The notes under the pieces were generated by a model. That model was not told where the DNA came from. It made no database searches and saw only the letters and a program-made list of their open reading frames with translations. DNA of 64,000 nt from Halovulum dunhuangense (GTDB taxonomy: Bacteria > Pseudomonadota > Alphaproteobacteria > Rhodobacterales > Rhodobacteraceae). Below are positions 27,694 to 37,620 of this stretch, in pieces; position 1 is the first letter of the stretch; the number at the start of each line of letters is the position of its first letter. Location: the NCBI RefSeq assembly GCF_013093415.1, contig NZ_JABFBC010000001.1, forward strand, positions 1,860,001 through 1,924,000, read 5' to 3'. A program made the position numbers and the translations under genes.

Positions 27694-27795
27694 CCTGCGG
27701 GGGATTTGCCGCTAATCTGAACCGGGTGCGAATCGACAGGTCCGGCAAGAAGGCGCAGAGACAGGCGCCCGGCAGACCAACCGGGGAGGATGCGG

Positions 27796-28755
27796 ATGCG
27801 GCGCGGCGCGATTCTGGCGGGACTGTTTGCGGCGGCGCTCGCACAGGGGGCGGGCGCGCAGGATCACGGTTTCCTGGCCATCGGCGCCGGTTCGGTCGGC
27901 GGGGTCTACTACCCGACCGCCAGCGCCATCTGCCGGCTGGTGAACCGCGAGACGGACCGCCATGGCGCGCGCTGCGCGGCACAGGCCAGCGGCGGATCGG
28001 TCGCCAATATCGAAGCGATCCGCGACGGGTCGATGGAATTCGCCGTCGTGCAAGGCGACATAGAGCGTGCCGCGATGCTGGGAGAAGGGCCTTTCGAGGG
28101 CGTGGCCCTGCCAGAGTTGCGGGCGGTCTTTGCCGCCCATTCCGAGCCCTTTACGCTGATCGTGCGCGAGGGCAGCGGCATCGCGGGGATCGCCGATCTC
28201 CGGGGGCGGCGCGTGAACCTTGGCGCCCCCGGGTCCGGGCAGCGTGTCACGACCGAGCGGGTCCTGGCGGCGCAGGGGCTCGACATCGGCAGCATAGTGT
28301 CCACCGAAGCCTCGGGCCGGGCCGTGGCGGCAGAGATCTGCGGGGGCGGGGCCGATGCGCTGATCTATACCATCGGCCACCCGGCCGCGATCCTGCGCGA
28401 GGCGGCCGAGACCTGCGACCTGCGGTTTCTGCCGGTGGGCGGTCCTGAAATCGATGCGCTGCTCGAGGAAAGCCCGGCCTACAGCCGGGCCGTCATCCCC
28501 GCCGGGCTGTATCCGGGGACAGAGACCCCGGTCGAAAGCTTTGCCGTGGGCAGCGCGCTGGTGACGCGGGTCGACGTGGACGACGCGCTGGTCGCGACCG
28601 TCGCCCGCGCGGTCCTTGGCAATCTTGCGGAATTCCGGGCCCAGCACCCGGCGCTTGTCGGTCTGGATCCGAAGGCGATGCTGAGCGGTGGCACCACCGC
28701 GCCGCTGCATCCGGGCGCGCTGGCCGCCTATCGTGACATGGGACTGATCGACTGA
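27796..28755 (+). CDS. TAXI-family TRAP solute-binding protein
   Basis: 319 residues. A signal peptide (RRGAILAGLFAAALAQGAGAQD) leads to the TAXI core FLAIGAGSVGGVYYPTASAICRLVN, AQASGGSVANIEAIRDGSMEFAVVQGD, LRGRRVNLGAPGSGQRVTTERVL and ADALIYTIGHPAAIL. TAXI proteins bind a carboxylate in the periplasm for a TRAP permease. No permease gene is in the window. The start at 27796 was chosen over 27790 because GGGGAGG then has 6-base spacing. Its stop overlaps the ATG of the acyl-CoA dehydrogenase (TGATG), indicating a shared pathway. The ligand is unknown. Confidence 0.9.
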   Translation: MRRGAILAGLFAAALAQGAGAQDHGFLAIGAGSVGGVYYPTASAICRLVNRETDRHGARCAAQASGGSVANIEAIRDGSMEFAVVQGDIERAAMLGEGPFEGVALPELRAVFAAHSEPFTLIVREGSGIAGIADLRGRRVNLGAPGSGQRVTTERVLAAQGLDIGSIVSTEASGRAVAAEICGGGADALIYTIGHPAAILREAAETCDLRFLPVGGPEIDALLEESPAYSRAVIPAGLYPGTETPVESFAVGSALVTRVDVDDALVATVARAVLGNLAEFRAQHPALVGLDPKAMLSGGTTAPLHPGALAAYRDMGLID

Positions 28756-29987
28756 TGGACCTGGGCATTACCCAAAAGGTCGCCCCGCTGGTCGAGGCGG
28801 TGCGCCAGATGGTGCGCGAGGAGATCTCGCCGCTCGATGCGGAATTCCACGCCGAGGTGGGCAAGACGGGCGACCGCTTTGCCTATACGCCGCGCATGAC
28901 CGGGATCCTGGAGGGGCTGAAGGAAAAGGCGCGCGCGCGCGGCCTGTGGAACTTCTGGCTGACCGAAGGGATCGGCGGCAACGGGCTGTCCACCGTGGAA
29001 TATGCCTACCTGGCCGAAGAGATGGGCAAGGTCCGGATCGCGGCCGAGGTGTTCAACTGCTCCGCACCCGACACCGGCAACATGGACGTGCTGCGCCGCT
29101 ATGCCGAGAAGTCGCACCAGGAACGCTGGCTTGTGCCGCTGATGGAGGGGCGGATCCGTTCGGCCTACCTGATGACCGAGCCGCAGGTCGCAAGTTCGGA
29201 CGCGACCAACATCTCGCTCTCCTGCATCCGGGACGGCGACAGCTATGTCCTGAACGGCGAGAAGTGGTGGGCGAGCGGCGCGGGCGACCCGCGCTGCGCG
29301 CTGTATATCGTGATGGTGCGCACCGGGGGCGAAGACCTGCCGAAGCACCAGCGCCACTCGATGATCCTGGTGGACCCGAAGTCGCCCGGGATCGAGGTGC
29401 TGCGCCCGATGCAGGTCTATGGCCATGACGACGCGCCGCACGGGCACATGCATGTCCGCTTTGCCGATGTCCGGGTGCCGGCGGAGAACCTGCTTCTGGG
29501 CGAGGGGCGCGGCTTCGAGATCGCGCAGGGGCGGCTGGGTCCGGGGCGGATCCACCACTGCATGCGCGCGATCGGCCACGCAGAGGCGGCGCTGGAACTC
29601 ATGTGCCGCCGCGCGCTGGACCGGTCGGCCTTTGGCAGGCCCCTGGCGCAGCTGGGCGCGAACTACGACATCATCGCCGAGTGCCGCATGGAGATCGAGC
29701 AGGCGCGGCTTCTGTGCCTGAAGGCGGCCTGGATGATGGAGCAGGGCGATGCGCGCGCGGCCGCACCCTGGATCAGCCAGATCAAGGTGGTGGCGCCGCG
29801 GGTCGCGCTGAAGGTGGTGGACGAGGCGGTGCAGATGTTCGGTGGGCAGGGCATCAGCCAGGACACGCCGCTGGCAGCCAGCTGGACGCATCTGCGCACG
29901 CTGCGGCTGGCGGACGGTCCGGACGCCGTTCATCGGCGCCAGGTGGCCCGCGCGGAACTCCGGCGTTACACGAATGACAAGGTGTAA
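28755..29987 (+). CDS. ACAD10/11-like acyl-CoA dehydrogenase
   Basis: 410 residues, FAD-dependent. The N-terminal helical domain includes GLWNFWLTEGIGGNGLSTVEYAYLAEEMG. The middle sheet has AYLMTEPQVASSDATNISLSC (substrate/FAD loop) and VLNGEKWWASGAGDPRC. The C-terminal domain has GRGFEIAQGRLGPGRIHHCMRAIG, ALDRSAFGRPLAQLG and MFGGQGISQDTPLA. The GRIHHCMR and WNFWLTEG forms are typical of the ACAD10/ACAD11 branch, not of straight-chain dehydrogenases. It is co-translated with the upstream TAXI gene and followed 29 bp later by an APH-fold kinase, the two halves fused in eukaryotic ACAD10/11. The substrate is inferred, probably a (phospho)hydroxyacyl-CoA. Confidence 0.88.
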   Translation: MDLGITQKVAPLVEAVRQMVREEISPLDAEFHAEVGKTGDRFAYTPRMTGILEGLKEKARARGLWNFWLTEGIGGNGLSTVEYAYLAEEMGKVRIAAEVFNCSAPDTGNMDVLRRYAEKSHQERWLVPLMEGRIRSAYLMTEPQVASSDATNISLSCIRDGDSYVLNGEKWWASGAGDPRCALYIVMVRTGGEDLPKHQRHSMILVDPKSPGIEVLRPMQVYGHDDAPHGHMHVRFADVRVPAENLLLGEGRGFEIAQGRLGPGRIHHCMRAIGHAEAALELMCRRALDRSAFGRPLAQLGANYDIIAECRMEIEQARLLCLKAAWMMEQGDARAAAPWISQIKVVAPRVALKVVDEAVQMFGGQGISQDTPLAASWTHLRTLRLADGPDAVHRRQVARAELRRYTNDKV

Positions 29988-30016
29988 GGGACTGTTCAGT
30001 CGGGGTTATCGCCCAC

Positions 30017-31051
30017 ATGGCTGAGGCTGCCGACCTGCTGCCCGTCGCGCGGGCCGAAGAGTGGCTGCGCGGCCGCATCCCCGGCTTCAGCCGGATCCAT
30101 GCGGCGCAGAAGACGGCGACGGGGCAGTCGAACCCGACCTTCATCCTGGAAACCGATGCGGGGCGGCTGGTGCTGCGGCGCAAGCCGCCGGGGCGGCTTC
30201 TGAAATCGGCCCATGCGGTGGAACGCGAATACCGCGTGCTGTCGGCGCTGCATGGCAGGGGCGTGCCCGTGCCGAAGCCCTGGTGCCTGTGCGAGGACGA
30301 GGCCGTGCTCGGCACCGCGTTTTTCGTGATGGAGCATGTGGCGGGCCGGTGCGAGAACGACCCCCGCGCGCCGGGGCTTTCGCGGTGGACGCGGGCGGCA
30401 CTTTACGACGACATGAACCGCTGCCTTGCCGCGTTGCACGCGCTCGACCCCGATGCGATCGGGCTTTCCGATTTCGGGCGGCCGGGCGATTATTTCGCGC
30501 GCCAGCTTTCCCGCTGGACCGCCCAGTATCGCGCCAGCCAGACCGAGCCCCAGCCGCAGATGGAGGCGCTGATCGACTGGCTCGGCGCGCATCTGCCGCC
30601 CGAGGATGGCATGGTCGCGCTCGTGCATGGCGACTGGCGGCTCGACAACCTGCTGTTCGACCCCGCGTCGGGCCGCATCACCGCGGTGCTTGACTGGGAA
30701 CTTTCGACGCTCGGCCATCCGCTGGCCGACCTGGGCGCGCAGATCATGCAATGGCAGATGCCGGTGGGCCCGGACAGCCGGGGACTGGACGGCGTGGATC
30801 GGGAGGCGTCGGGTATCCCGTCCGACGCGGCCTATGTCGCCCGCTATGCCGAGCGCAGGGGCTGGCGCGCCCCGCCCGACATGCGTTTCCCGGTCGCCTT
30901 TGCCTTTTTCCGCATGGCCGCGATCCTTCAGGGTGTGCGGAAGCGGGCCCTGGACGGGAATGCGTCCAACCCCGAAAAGGCCCTGCGCATGGGGGCTTAC
31001 GGCCCGGAATTCGCCCGCCGCGCGACCCGGTGGATCAGCGCGGGATCCTGA
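30017..31051 (+). CDS. APH-fold phosphotransferase (ACAD10/11 N-domain / LvaA-like)
   Basis: 344 residues with the aminoglycoside phosphotransferase kinase fold. GQSNPTFILETDAGRLVLRRKPPG is the ATP-binding lobe. The catalytic loop is LVHGDWRLDNLLFD (His204, Asp206), and the Mg-binding VLDWELSTLGHPLADL carries Asp226. The segment HAVEREYRVLSALHGRGVPVPKPWCLC is shared with ACAD10/11 kinase domains. Next to an ACAD gene this is most likely an acyl-CoA hydroxyl kinase, not an antibiotic resistance enzyme. In Pseudomonas, the related LvaA phosphorylates 4-hydroxyacyl-CoA. The 3' end overlaps the convergent histidine kinase gene by 17 bp. The fold is certain and the substrate inferred. Confidence 0.85.
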   Translation: MAEAADLLPVARAEEWLRGRIPGFSRIHAAQKTATGQSNPTFILETDAGRLVLRRKPPGRLLKSAHAVEREYRVLSALHGRGVPVPKPWCLCEDEAVLGTAFFVMEHVAGRCENDPRAPGLSRWTRAALYDDMNRCLAALHALDPDAIGLSDFGRPGDYFARQLSRWTAQYRASQTEPQPQMEALIDWLGAHLPPEDGMVALVHGDWRLDNLLFDPASGRITAVLDWELSTLGHPLADLGAQIMQWQMPVGPDSRGLDGVDREASGIPSDAAYVARYAERRGWRAPPDMRFPVAFAFFRMAAILQGVRKRALDGNASNPEKALRMGAYGPEFARRATRWISAGS

Positions 31052-32375
31052 AGACGCAGCGCAGCCCGCCAAGATCGGGGCTGTCCGACAGGTCCAGGGC
31101 CCCGCCATGCGAGCGCGCCACGTCTTGTGCTATGGCAAGGCCCAGCCCCACGCCCGCGCCCTTGTCCTGGTTGCGCGCGGTGTCGAGCCGGGTGAAGGGG
31201 CGCATCACCTCCTCGCGCTTGTCCTCGGGCACCCCGGGGCCGTCATCCTCGACGATGAAATTCGCCGCGCGTTGCGTGAGCCGCAGGGTCAGGCGCACGC
31301 GGCTGGCGTGCCGGGCGGCGTTGTTGACCAGGTTGGTCAGCGCGCGTCTGATCGCCGCCTCGCGCAGCGGCATGGTTGCCGCGCCCGGTGTCTCTACCTG
31401 GACCGAGGTTTCCAGCAGGATGCCCGACCGGGCCGCCTGCTCGGCCAGTTCGGCGATCAGGCCGGGCAGGTCCACCTCCTGCATCTCTTCCATCTGGTCG
31501 CCCTTGGCGAAGGCGAGAAAGGCGTCGAGCATCCGCTCCATCTCGTTCAGGTCGCGGTTCATCTCGGCCGCCTCGGGCATGTCGTCGGCCAGCGCAAGCG
31601 TCAGCTTCATCCGCGTCAGCGGCGTGCGCAGGTCGTGGCTCACGCCCGACAGCATGAGCGTGCGCTGCTCGATCGCGCGCTCGATCCGGGCGCGCATCGA
31701 CAGGAACGCATTGCCGGCGCGGCGCACTTCCTCGGCACCGGCGGGCCGGAACGGGACAGAGCGGCCCTTGCCGAAGGCGTCTGCCGCATCCGCCAGGTCC
31801 AGGATCGGGCGCATCTGGTTGCGCAGGAACAGGATCGCGATGGCCGCCAGCACCAGCGAGACGACGATCATCAGCACCAGAAGCTGGTGGGGGTTCGACG
31901 CGGTGACCCGCACGCGGGGAATGATCGCGTGCAGCACGCCCCGGTCGGTCTGAAGCCGCGCATCCACCATGCGGTCGTTGCTGCGCAGATCGACCCGCAG
32001 ATCCGGGCCCAAGAGCGCCGTCATCTCCTGGATCAGGGCGCGGCCCGACAGGTCGTACCACAGGCGCAGGTTGTCGCCCGAGACGGTTTCCAGCGGTTCC
32101 AGGTCCAGCGTGATCGCCAGCGGCTCTGACAGGTTCTGAAGCCGAAGCTGCGCGATGGCCGCGGTCGGGGAAGTGTCGATCACCTGCTGGGCAACCGCGA
32201 TCTCGCGCGCGATGGAGCGGGTCATCTGCCGCGTGACCCCCTCGAAATGGCGCTGCACGAAGACAAAGGCCACGACCAGTTGCAGGGCGATCAGCGGCAC
32301 CATCACGATCAGGATGGTCCGGGGCAGCAGCGAGCGCGGCAGATAGGTCTTGAGCGGCGGGGCTTTCATCGCCAT
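31035..32375 (-). CDS. EnvZ-like sensor histidine kinase, orphan
   Basis: 446 residues. Membrane helices at about residues 15-37 and 165-187 flank a periplasmic domain of about 125 residues. A HAMP domain (FLRNQMRPILDLADAADAFGKG) follows, then the H-box MLSGVSHDLRTPLTRMKLTL and the ATPase boxes LTNLVNNAARHA, VEDDGPGVPEDKREEVMRPF and GAGVGLGLAIAQDVARSHGG. The closest architecture is EnvZ, which signals to OmpR. No response regulator gene adjoins it. The start is uncertain between 32375 (MAMKAPPL) and 32369, as neither has a clear ribosome site. The gene overlaps the convergent APH kinase gene at its 3' end and is divergent from the MBL hydrolase. Confidence 0.85.
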   Translation of the reverse strand: MAMKAPPLKTYLPRSLLPRTILIVMVPLIALQLVVAFVFVQRHFEGVTRQMTRSIAREIAVAQQVIDTSPTAAIAQLRLQNLSEPLAITLDLEPLETVSGDNLRLWYDLSGRALIQEMTALLGPDLRVDLRSNDRMVDARLQTDRGVLHAIIPRVRVTASNPHQLLVLMIVVSLVLAAIAILFLRNQMRPILDLADAADAFGKGRSVPFRPAGAEEVRRAGNAFLSMRARIERAIEQRTLMLSGVSHDLRTPLTRMKLTLALADDMPEAAEMNRDLNEMERMLDAFLAFAKGDQMEEMQEVDLPGLIAELAEQAARSGILLETSVQVETPGAATMPLREAAIRRALTNLVNNAARHASRVRLTLRLTQRAANFIVEDDGPGVPEDKREEVMRPFTRLDTARNQDKGAGVGLGLAIAQDVARSHGGALDLSDSPDLGGLRCVFRIPR

Positions 32376-32418
32376 CACAGGCTTAGCGGGCGCCCGCCGC
32401 CCCCGCAAGGAGAAGCCC

Positions 32419-33303
32419 GTGCCTGACGCGCCATTCCCGCCCGGCCTGCGCCGCCTGATCGCGCCCAACCCGTCGCCGATGACGGCGGAGGGCACCAACA
32501 CCTGGCTTCTGGGGCAGCGGCAGGTCGCGGTGATCGATCCGGGCCCGGACGATCCGGCGCATGTTGCGGCCATTCTCGGCGCGCTGGGGCCGGGGGCCGA
32601 GATCAGCCATATCCTCGTGACCCACGCCCATGCCGATCACTCGGGCGCCGTGCCCCGGCTGAAGGCCGCGACGGGGGCCGAGGTGCTGGCCTTCGGGCAG
32701 GCGACCGAGGGCCGCGCGCCCGCGATGGCGGCGCTGGCCGCACGCGAGGGGCTTGCCGGAGGCGAGGGGATCGACGCGGCCTTTGCCCCCGATCGCAGGC
32801 TGGCCCCCGGCGCGCGGGTGGAAAGCGACGAATGGCGGCTGACCGCGCTGCACACGCCGGGCCACCTGTCGAGCCACATGTGCTTCGTGCTGGAGGATGC
32901 GGCTGCGGTGTTCACCGGGGATACGGTGATGGGCTGGTCGTCCACGCTGATCTCGCCCCCCGATGGCAGCGTGAGCGAGTATCTTGCCTCGATCGATCTG
33001 CTGATGGACCGATCCGAGGATCTGTACCTGCCGGGCCATGGCGCCGCCGTGCCGCAGGGGCGGGCGCTTGCGGCCAGCCAGAAGGCGCACCGACTTGGGC
33101 GCGCGGCAGAGATCGTTGCGGGACTGGAAAAGGGGCCTGCCACGCTGGCGGCGCTGACCGCGGGCATCTACGCGGACCTGCCCGAACGCCTGCACCGGGC
33201 TGCGATGCGCAACGTGCTGGCGCATCTGATCGACCTGTCGTTGCAGGGCCGGGTCGCGCTGCCCGACGGCCCGCTCGACCGGGGCAGTTTCCGGCTGTCG
33301 TGA
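32419..33303 (+). CDS. MBL-fold metallo-hydrolase, LACTB2-like
   Basis: 294 residues. THAHADHSGAVP is the metal-binding HxHxDH motif. VIDPGPDDPAHV, HTPGHLSSHMCFVLEDAAAVFTGD, MGWSSTLISPPDGSVSEYLASID and LYLPGHGAAV give the remaining ligands, and a C-terminal winged-helix tail follows (ERLHRAAMRNVLAHLIDLSLQGRV). This is the order in LACTB2 and related hydrolases, which include RNases and thiolesterases. The start is a GTG at 32419, chosen because AAGGAGA lies 6 bases upstream. An upstream ATG frame overlaps the divergent kinase and lacks homology. The reaction is not assignable from motifs. Confidence 0.85.
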   Translation: MPDAPFPPGLRRLIAPNPSPMTAEGTNTWLLGQRQVAVIDPGPDDPAHVAAILGALGPGAEISHILVTHAHADHSGAVPRLKAATGAEVLAFGQATEGRAPAMAALAAREGLAGGEGIDAAFAPDRRLAPGARVESDEWRLTALHTPGHLSSHMCFVLEDAAAVFTGDTVMGWSSTLISPPDGSVSEYLASIDLLMDRSEDLYLPGHGAAVPQGRALAASQKAHRLGRAAEIVAGLEKGPATLAALTAGIYADLPERLHRAAMRNVLAHLIDLSLQGRVALPDGPLDRGSFRLS

Positions 33304-35398: not shown

Positions 35399-35830
35399 AT
35401 GGCCGAGAACTTCGACGACATCGCCGCGAATTTCGCCTTCCTCGACGATTGGGAAGACCGCTACCGCTATGTGATCGAGCTGGGCAAGGAGATGCCCGGC
35501 CTCGACGAGAGCCAGCGCCTGCCCGCAACGAAGGTCGAAGGTTGCGCCAGCCAGGTCTGGCTGGTCCCGCATGTCGAGGGCAGCGGCCCCGGCGCGCGCA
35601 TCCGCTTCGAGGGCGACAGCGACGCGCTGATCGTGCGCGGGCTGATCGCGGTGCTGCGCGCGCTCTACAACGGGCACAGCGCCACCGAGATCGCGGGCAT
35701 CGACGCCCAGGCGAAACTGGCGGAACTGGGGCTGGACCAGCATCTTTCGGCGCAGCGCTCGAACGGGCTGCGCGCCATGATCGGGCGCATCCGCGCCATC
35801 GCCAAGCAGGCAGAAGAGGCCGCCGCATGA
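35399..35830 (+). CDS. sufE: Cysteine desulfuration protein SufE
   Basis: 143 residues. SufE takes persulfide sulfur from SufS for Fe-S cluster assembly in the cytoplasm. NFAFLDDWEDRYRYVIELGKEMPGL, the sulfur-acceptor Cys49 in KVEGCASQVWL, and ALIVRGLIAVLRALYNGHSA are family landmarks. The suf operon is not in the window. Its stop overlaps the start of the homocysteine methyltransferase (ATGA), so it is translated with the split methionine synthase genes. Confidence 0.93.
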   Translation: MAENFDDIAANFAFLDDWEDRYRYVIELGKEMPGLDESQRLPATKVEGCASQVWLVPHVEGSGPGARIRFEGDSDALIVRGLIAVLRALYNGHSATEIAGIDAQAKLAELGLDQHLSAQRSNGLRAMIGRIRAIAKQAEEAAA

Positions 35831-36840
35831 GAATTTCCCTCGAACAGCTGCTGGCGCAGCGCGACTGGATCCTGACCGACGGGGCGACGGGGACCAACCT
35901 TTTCAACGCGGGGCTTCCCGCGGGCGAGGCGCCGGAGCTGTGGAACACCGAGAACCCGGATGCCATCCGCGCGCTCTATCGCTCGGCCGTGGATGCGGGC
36001 AGCGACCTGTTCCTGACCAACACCTTCGGCGGCAACGCCTCGCGGCTGAAGCTGCACAATGCCGCGCACCGGGTTTACGAGCTGAACCGCGCCGCGGCCC
36101 TGCTGGGCCGCGAGGTGGCCGATGCCAGCCCGCGCCCGATCGTCGTGGCAGGATCGATGGGTCCGACCGGAGAGATCATGCAGCCCGTGGGATCGCTGAG
36201 CGAGGCCGACGCCGCCGACATGTTCGAGGAGCAGGCGCGCGGGCTGATGGATGGCGGGGCCGACGTGCTCTGGGTCGAGACGATCTCGGCACCCGAGGAA
36301 CTGCGCGCCGCCGCCATCGGCATTGCCCGCGTGGGCGCGCCCTGGTGCTGCACCATGAGCTTCGACACCGCCGGGCGCACCATGATGGGCGTCACCTCGG
36401 CCGGGATGGTGGCGCTGATCGAGGAATTGCCGCACCGTCCCATCGCGTTCGGGGCGAATTGCGGGGTGGGGGCCTCGGACCTGCTGCGCACCGTGCGCGG
36501 CATGCATCTGGCCGGCGCCACGCTGCCGCTGATCGCAAAGGGCAACGCCGGGGTGCCGAAATTCGTCGAGGGGCATGTGCATTACAACGGCACGCCCGCC
36601 CTGATGGCCGATTACGCGCGGCTGGCAATGGATTGCGGCGCAAGGATCATCGGCGGGTGCTGTGGCACCGGGCCCGAGCATCTGGGCGCGATGCATGACG
36701 CGCTGGGGGCGCATCGCAAGGGGGCGGTGCCCGAGCTCGAGACCATCGCCGAACGGGTCGGAGGGTTCTCTTCCGACGTGGATGGCACCGGCGACAATGA
36801 CGGCGGCGAACGCCGCGTCCGCCGCCGGCGCCGCGGCTGA
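35827..36840 (+). CDS. bmt: Homocysteine S-methyltransferase (zinc-type), part of a split methionine synthase
   Basis: 337 residues, equal to the first MetH module only. DGATGTNLFNAGLP, LFLTNTFGGNASRLKLH and the zinc ligands Cys212 (FGANCGVG) and Cys278/Cys279 (IGGCCGTGPEHL) have the spacing of MetH and betaine-homocysteine methyltransferase. It should methylate homocysteine from a methyl-corrinoid protein. The next gene encodes such a protein and the pterin-binding enzyme is at 402-1328, so a MetH role is preferred to a betaine-dependent one. After residue 310 comes an acidic linker (SDVDGTGDNDGGE), then RRVRRRRRG, seven arginines at the very C-terminus. It overlaps sufE by 4 bp. Confidence 0.88.
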   Translation: MRISLEQLLAQRDWILTDGATGTNLFNAGLPAGEAPELWNTENPDAIRALYRSAVDAGSDLFLTNTFGGNASRLKLHNAAHRVYELNRAAALLGREVADASPRPIVVAGSMGPTGEIMQPVGSLSEADAADMFEEQARGLMDGGADVLWVETISAPEELRAAAIGIARVGAPWCCTMSFDTAGRTMMGVTSAGMVALIEELPHRPIAFGANCGVGASDLLRTVRGMHLAGATLPLIAKGNAGVPKFVEGHVHYNGTPALMADYARLAMDCGARIIGGCCGTGPEHLGAMHDALGAHRKGAVPELETIAERVGGFSSDVDGTGDNDGGERRVRRRRRG

Positions 36841-36912
36841 AAAACGCGCGGCCGACCGCCGGCAGAAGGCATCCCCGCCTGAGCGTGGGCAACAAGAGAC
36901 GGAAACGACGCA

Positions 36913-37620
36913 ATGTCCGATGAAGACGATGATCTCGTCCTGAGCGAACTGGACGACGACGAACTGGTCGAGCAGATGATGGACGATCTCTATGACGGGA
37001 TGAAGCCCGAGATAGAGGAAGGCGTGAACATCCTGCTGGAACGCGGCTGGACCCCCTATGACATCCTGACCAAGGCACTGGTGTCGGGCATGAAGGTGGT
37101 GGGCGACGATTTCCGCGACGGCATCCTGTTCGTCCCCGAGGTGCTGCTGGCCGCCAACGCGATGAAGGGCGGCATGGGCATCCTCAAGCCGCTGCTGGTG
37201 GAAACCGGCGCGCCGCGGCTGGGAAAGATGGTGATCGGCACCGTGAAGGGCGACATCCACGACATCGGCAAGAACCTGGTCGCCATGATGATGGAGGGTG
37301 CGGGCTTCGAGATCGTGGACCTGGGCATCAACAACCCGGCCGAGAACTACATCGACACCGCCCGCAAGGAAGGCGCGGACATTATCGGCATGTCGGCGCT
37401 GCTGACCACCACCATGCCCTACATGAAGGTCGTGATCGACACCATGAAAGAGCAGGGCATCCGCGACGAATACATCGTCATGGTCGGTGGCGCGCCCCTG
37501 AACGAGGAATTCGGCCGCGCGATCGGGGCCGATGCCTATTGCCGCGACGCGGCGGTGGCGGTCGAGACGGCGAAATCGCTGATGGCGCGCAAGCACAACC
37601 AGCAGGCGGCCAACGCCTGA
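36913..37620 (+). CDS. mtbC: Corrinoid (methyl-B12 carrier) protein, part of a split methionine synthase
   Basis: 235 residues, MtbC/MtaC-like. A helical cap (ILLERGWTPYDILTKALVSGMKVVGDDFRDG, FVPEVLLAANAMKGGM) precedes the B12 domain with lower axial His116 in VKGDIHDIGKNLV, IIGMSALLTTTMPYM and VMVGGAPLNEEFG. It should carry the methyl group between the pterin enzyme (402-1328) and the homocysteine enzyme just upstream. The first 28 residues hold 14 Asp/Glu and no Lys or Arg (MSDEDDDLVLSELDDDE), not a usual feature of the cap domain. No reactivation domain is present, so a separate RamA-like or other reductase is needed; none is in the window. The gene starts 72 bp after bmt. Confidence 0.9.
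   Translation: MSDEDDDLVLSELDDDELVEQMMDDLYDGMKPEIEEGVNILLERGWTPYDILTKALVSGMKVVGDDFRDGILFVPEVLLAANAMKGGMGILKPLLVETGAPRLGKMVIGTVKGDIHDIGKNLVAMMMEGAGFEIVDLGINNPAENYIDTARKEGADIIGMSALLTTTMPYMKVVIDTMKEQGIRDEYIVMVGGAPLNEEFGRAIGADAYCRDAAVAVETAKSLMARKHNQQAANA

Follow-up and report, generated by a model that had tools for sequence, protein, structure and literature searches.

A stand-alone ACAD10/ACAD11-type dehydrogenase and kinase pair predicted to act on 4-hydroxyacyl-CoAs in Halovulum dunhuangense

In this study, we identified in Halovulum dunhuangense a two-gene counterpart of ACAD10/ACAD11, in which an APH-fold kinase would phosphorylate a 4-hydroxyacyl-CoA and a dehydrogenase-fold enzyme would expel the phosphate to yield a 2-enoyl-CoA. 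We regard this reading as highly probable; protein identity, active-site residues, phylogeny and co-occurrence were observed directly, while the chemistry is carried over by analogy. The reaction has been published for mouse ACAD10/11, for the Lva enzymes of Pseudomonas putida and for a pair from Burkholderia pseudomallei, and the genes described here therefore join a known kind. This is thus a sound identification within a known and widespread bacterial system and not a new system. In mammals, a single protein, ACAD10 or ACAD11, readies 4-hydroxy fatty acids for normal β-oxidation (PMC12440821, PMC11342911). As the physiological substrates of these proteins are still under study, the pair also offers a tractable unfused bacterial model of them.

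Both genes are located on the forward strand of the window, the 64,000-nucleotide stretch of DNA that was analysed. The dehydrogenase gene spans positions 28755 to 29987 (410 amino acids, ATG start, stop codon included) and is followed after 29 bp by the kinase gene at 30017 to 31051 (344 amino acids, ATG start), and their codon-position GC is consistent with real genes. An initial sequence-only reading had described an ACAD10/11-type dehydrogenase followed 29 bp on by an APH-fold kinase, and the open reading frames, spacing and families were all confirmed. Immediately upstream, on the same strand, a gene for a TAXI-family TRAP solute-binding protein (27790 to 28755; TIGR02122, 259.7 bits against a cutoff of 84.35) shares one nucleotide between its stop codon and the dehydrogenase start codon (tgATG). 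At the other end, the last 17 bases of the kinase gene are overlapped by an opposite-strand gene for an EnvZ-like histidine kinase that ends at 31035. Query searches found one copy each of the dehydrogenase and the kinase in the source genome. In the window the two form separate open reading frames. Long open frames at ten bacterial loci had hinted at fusions, but none was found there: either the kinase and dehydrogenase occupy different reading frames or one of the two is missing, and the long frames are therefore high-GC artefacts.

The dehydrogenase contains the N, M and C domains of the acyl-CoA dehydrogenase family in Pfam (C domain, 1.9e-35). Its best matches among PDB sequences are 4hr3 from Mycobacterium abscessus (3e-125), human ACAD11 (2wbi, 2e-120) and mouse ACAD11 (8v3u/8v3v, ~1e-119), whereas the first acyl-CoA dehydrogenase (ACAD) of another kind, MCAD, follows at 4e-40, a gap of ~80 orders of magnitude. 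Entry 4hr3, the closest solved sequence, is named only as a putative acyl-CoA dehydrogenase. Identity to the ACAD domain of mouse ACAD11 is 50% (191 of 384 aligned residues). In a quick tree without bootstraps (63 rows, comprising 61 ACAD10/11-type sequences and other ACADs of the same genome), all 61 ACAD10/11-type rows, including the window protein, formed one clade split from the other ACADs with an SH-aLRT support of 100. On this sequence evidence, the window dehydrogenase is of the atypical ACAD10/ACAD11/LvaC kind. It falls within an alphaproteobacterial subclade (support of 98 to 99) that is further from ACAD11 (49% identity) than many other bacterial members are (57 to 58%), which leaves room for a different substrate.

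The kinase matches the APH family (PF01636, 3e-52), and its best PDB-sequence matches are 3dxp (4e-101) and mouse ACAD11 (4e-71), with 44% identity to the ACAD11 kinase domain (137 of 308 residues). The title of 3dxp, "putative acyl-CoA dehydrogenase", is a mislabel, since the deposited sequence is the kinase. A quick kinase tree without bootstraps (51 rows) has a deep split, with an SH-aLRT of 100 on both sides; the window kinase falls on one side together with mouse ACAD11 and 3dxp, and divergent kinases including 9o56 make up the other. The phylogenetic check proposed in the sequence-only reading thus assigns the dehydrogenase to the ACAD10/11-type clade and puts the kinase on the mouse ACAD11 side; neither protein falls in an unrelated clade. 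The divergent kinases share 30 to 35% identity with ACAD11, close to the 29% published for LvaA (PMC11342911), and because of this similarity in percent identity alone we infer that they are LvaA type. LvaA is therefore unlikely to be the model nearest to the window kinase. Histidine-phosphatase genes recur beside the divergent kinases (L099, L100, L102, L127 and L121), also on a plasmid of Deinococcus radiodurans; such a phosphatase may possibly limit the phospho-intermediate, an idea modelled on the HAD domain that ACAD10 carries.

This placement bears on the alternative that survives best, namely, that the pair carries out the same chemistry as part of a levulinate and 4-hydroxyvalerate pathway, i.e., an lva operon. 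The enzyme families match, and PMC6692424, citing Rand et al. 2017, describes a kinase, LvaA, and an ACAD-family enzyme, LvaC, that in P. putida convert 4-hydroxyvaleryl-CoA, a 4-hydroxyacyl-CoA, through a 4-phospho intermediate, as predicted here. However, the window kinase lies on the ACAD11 side, apart from the group equated with LvaA by percent identity, and no acyl-CoA synthetase, LvaD-like short-chain dehydrogenase (SDR), small LvaB or sigma54 regulator was recognised directly beside the pair. Unlike in the P. putida operon, LvaB, LvaD, LvaE and LvaR were not seen next to the two genes. An LvaA-B-C-D-E set with LvaR is absent beside the pair, whose neighbours are the TAXI solute-binding protein, the histidine kinase and a metallo-beta-lactamase-fold protein. 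With nothing resembling an lva operon nearby, levulinate is not specifically indicated, and we consider this alternative improbable. In the genus of one sampled genome (G112), an ACAD10/11-type dehydrogenase is present in 144 of 149 sampled genomes, and the kinase is mostly unlinked in the few members examined; around the second copies inspected from these 149 genomes, no lvaABCDE arrangement was found.

A second alternative, an ordinary acyl-CoA dehydrogenase next to a kinase for an unrelated small molecule, would fit the generic database names of the two proteins (acyl-CoA dehydrogenase family protein and phosphotransferase family protein). The dehydrogenase residues argue strongly against it. 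In mouse ACAD11, R626, H634 and R637 hold the 4-phosphate and D753 acts as the base, and replacing any of these four residues abolished the activity of the dehydrogenase domain (Rashan et al., PMC12440821). In alignments with 8v3u and 8v3v, whose PDB chain index is one below the numbering of that paper, the phosphate-binding helix of the window protein, RLGPGRIHHCMR (29532 to 29567, forward strand), has R260, R265, H268 and R271 at the positions of mouse R626, R631, H634 and R637. The codon at 29913 to 29915 (forward strand) specifies D387 in LADGPD, the equivalent of D753 and an aspartate in place of the usual glutamate; 8v3v, the entry for a catalytic Asp-to-Asn mutant, has an asparagine at exactly this position. 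The four helix residues and D387 are invariant in all 61 aligned ACAD10/11-type dehydrogenases, whereas the base is a glutamate and the R/H/R set is incomplete in two ordinary ACADs encoded by the same genome. An arginine beside a conserved glutamate, at PDB chain index 83 against R86 of the paper (the exact correspondence being ambiguous), is part of an Arg-Glu pair that is conserved as R70 and E71 in the window protein.

The near-perfect co-occurrence of the two genes likewise speaks against an ordinary ACAD with an unrelated kinase. In a single draw of ~299 genomes of the phylum used for both genes, 83 genomes besides the source genome contain both, one contains the dehydrogenase alone and two contain the kinase alone (Fisher p of ~1e-70, without correction for shared ancestry). 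In four of these genomes (G125, G173, G193 and G117), the two genes lie far apart or on separate contigs, and their joint retention despite the lack of linkage suggests that function, and not linkage alone, keeps them together. Among 80 named relatives, the 16 loci of the closest group have both genes in the same orientation with the kinase second, in some overlapping the dehydrogenase end (-3 to -7) and in three lying 0.6 to 1 kb away. The two genes are divergent in 23 others, most of which are of the Mesorhizobium and Hoeflea types. In the remaining 41, mainly Roseovarius and Ruegeria types and short contigs, no kinase was found within the fetched flank. Furthermore, ACAD10/11 were inactive on plain acyl-CoAs (PMC12440821). 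Taken together, this makes the ordinary-ACAD alternative very unlikely.

The kinase has the residues expected of an ACAD10/11-type enzyme. In ACAD11, D220 is catalytic, and modelling adds N225 and, for CoA, R176 (PMC12440821). The corresponding residues of the window kinase are D206 and N211 in the catalytic loop D-W-R-L-D-N (30632 to 30649, forward strand; D206 codon at 30632 to 30634) of VHGDWRLDN and R162, and the entry for a kinase-dead Asp-to-Ala mutant, 8v3u, has an alanine at the position aligned with D206. The sequence and the alignment of kinases also show a metal-binding DWE motif (30692 to 30700, forward strand, within VLDWELS) with D226 (codon at 30692 to 30694) and E228. All five residues, D206, N211, D226, E228 and R162, are invariant in 51 of 51 aligned kinases, and the earlier description of intact HGD and DWE motifs was thus accurate. 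While the APH fold and these two motifs are shared with aminoglycoside-resistance enzymes, there is next to no chance that the kinase is one, as the sequence-only reading had also held, since it scores 36.1 bits with the NCBIfam APH(3') model, below the cutoff of 205, ACAD11 and 3dxp are the nearest relatives with solved structures, and the sole true aminoglycoside-modifying kinase listed among its PDB matches is a hygromycin-B kinase at 5e-4.

We therefore favor a 4-hydroxyacyl-CoA kinase and its partner dehydrogenase, and the proposal of an ACAD10/11-like pair that is unfused and works on a hydroxyacyl-CoA is borne out, as a prediction from sequence, by homology, by the catalytic and phosphate-binding residues, by phylogeny and by co-occurrence. 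In mouse ACAD10/11, the kinase produces a 4-phosphoacyl-CoA, which the ACAD domain converts to a 2-enoyl-CoA with a redox-active FAD and without an external electron acceptor (PMC12440821, PMC11342911). By analogy, the kinase would phosphorylate the 4-hydroxyl of a 4-hydroxyacyl-CoA at the expense of ATP, and the dehydrogenase-fold enzyme would bind the resulting 4-phosphoacyl-CoA through R260, H268 and R271. D387 would then take the alpha proton, and FAD would be used transiently to expel the phosphate, giving a trans-2-enoyl-CoA that could enter β-oxidation with no net redox change. The phosphorylation step suggested from the sequence alone agrees with this scheme, but the "isomerisation" proposed to follow it is too loose a term, as the published reaction is an FAD-dependent elimination of phosphate to a 2-enoyl-CoA (PMC12440821, PMC11342911).

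Similar to mammalian ACAD11 and ACAD10, the window pair has both domains, all of the catalytic and phosphate-binding residues and, by prediction, the two-step chemistry (PMC12440821, PMC11342911); unlike them, it is not fused but consists of two genes, dehydrogenase and then kinase. ACAD10 carries an extra HAD domain (PMC12440821, PMC11342911). Separate proteins are also found in B. pseudomallei, whose kinase and ACAD orthologues can replace either ACAD10 domain in vitro (Paquay et al., PMC11342911), and the same activities are predicted for the window proteins. The window kinase shares 53% identity with one from Burkholderia arboris, and a B. arboris dehydrogenase, 50% identical to that of the window, falls outside the alphaproteobacterial ACAD subclade. 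The routine labels "acyl-CoA dehydrogenase" and "aminoglycoside phosphotransferase" mask a predicted step of 4-hydroxy acid catabolism in ~28% of the genomes sampled from the phylum, and recognising the pair removes a false hint of antibiotic resistance.

Less certain are the origin of the substrate and the length of its carbon chain; candidate sources are 4-hydroxy fatty acids derived from lipids, gamma-lactones, and 4-oxo acids that a partner SDR would reduce. In window-clade relatives, SDR, MaoC, MDR and 4HBT genes occur within 2.5 kb of the dehydrogenase or kinase at 0.95, 0.41, 0.82 and 0.12 per 10 kb, respectively, compared with 0.03, 0.01, 0.07 and 0 per 10 kb beyond that distance, an enrichment that is biased upward because the queries were picked from the tested loci and the loci are related. 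The families (SDR, MaoC hydratase, MDR reductase and 4HBT thioesterase) were confirmed on example proteins. Acyl-CoA synthetase genes were not enriched near the pair in these relatives. In the source genome, no companion β-oxidation gene adjoins the pair, and a search with the MaoC protein of a relative gave no more than a weak homologue (4e-11).

In Oceanibium sediminis (L129), the gene order is TAXI binding protein, 874-amino-acid TRAP permease (DctM, PF06808), dehydrogenase and kinase, and this arrangement suggests that the locus takes up a carboxylate. In the window, no TRAP permease was called between the TAXI gene and the dehydrogenase gene; the nearest permease homologue in the source genome, 51% identical, is at C1:2176394. 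The TAXI gene is probably cotranscribed with the dehydrogenase gene, and its product is a possible component of substrate uptake. A conserved role for it was rejected, as a TAXI gene precedes the pair in the closest relatives only (L129 to L131). One tentative and rather doubtful proposal is that the alphaproteobacterial subclade (Rhodobacterales plus Mesorhizobium and Hoeflea) is a functionally distinct branch that salvages lipid-derived or marine 4-hydroxy or 4-oxo acids and not levulinate, such as products of 4-hydroxyalkenals after reduction by the adjoining MDR-type enzymes, and that it is fed by a dedicated TAXI-TRAP importer in the Oceanibium lineage.

Two further features of the region are of note. 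Beyond the pair, the EnvZ-like histidine kinase gene (31035 to 32573) is accompanied by a metallo-beta-lactamase-fold gene (32350 to 33303), and the same is seen in the relatives L129, L138, L140 and L142. At 35449 to 37620, a homocysteine-methyltransferase-like open reading frame is followed by one resembling a corrinoid-binding protein, an arrangement that by eye resembles a split methionine synthase.
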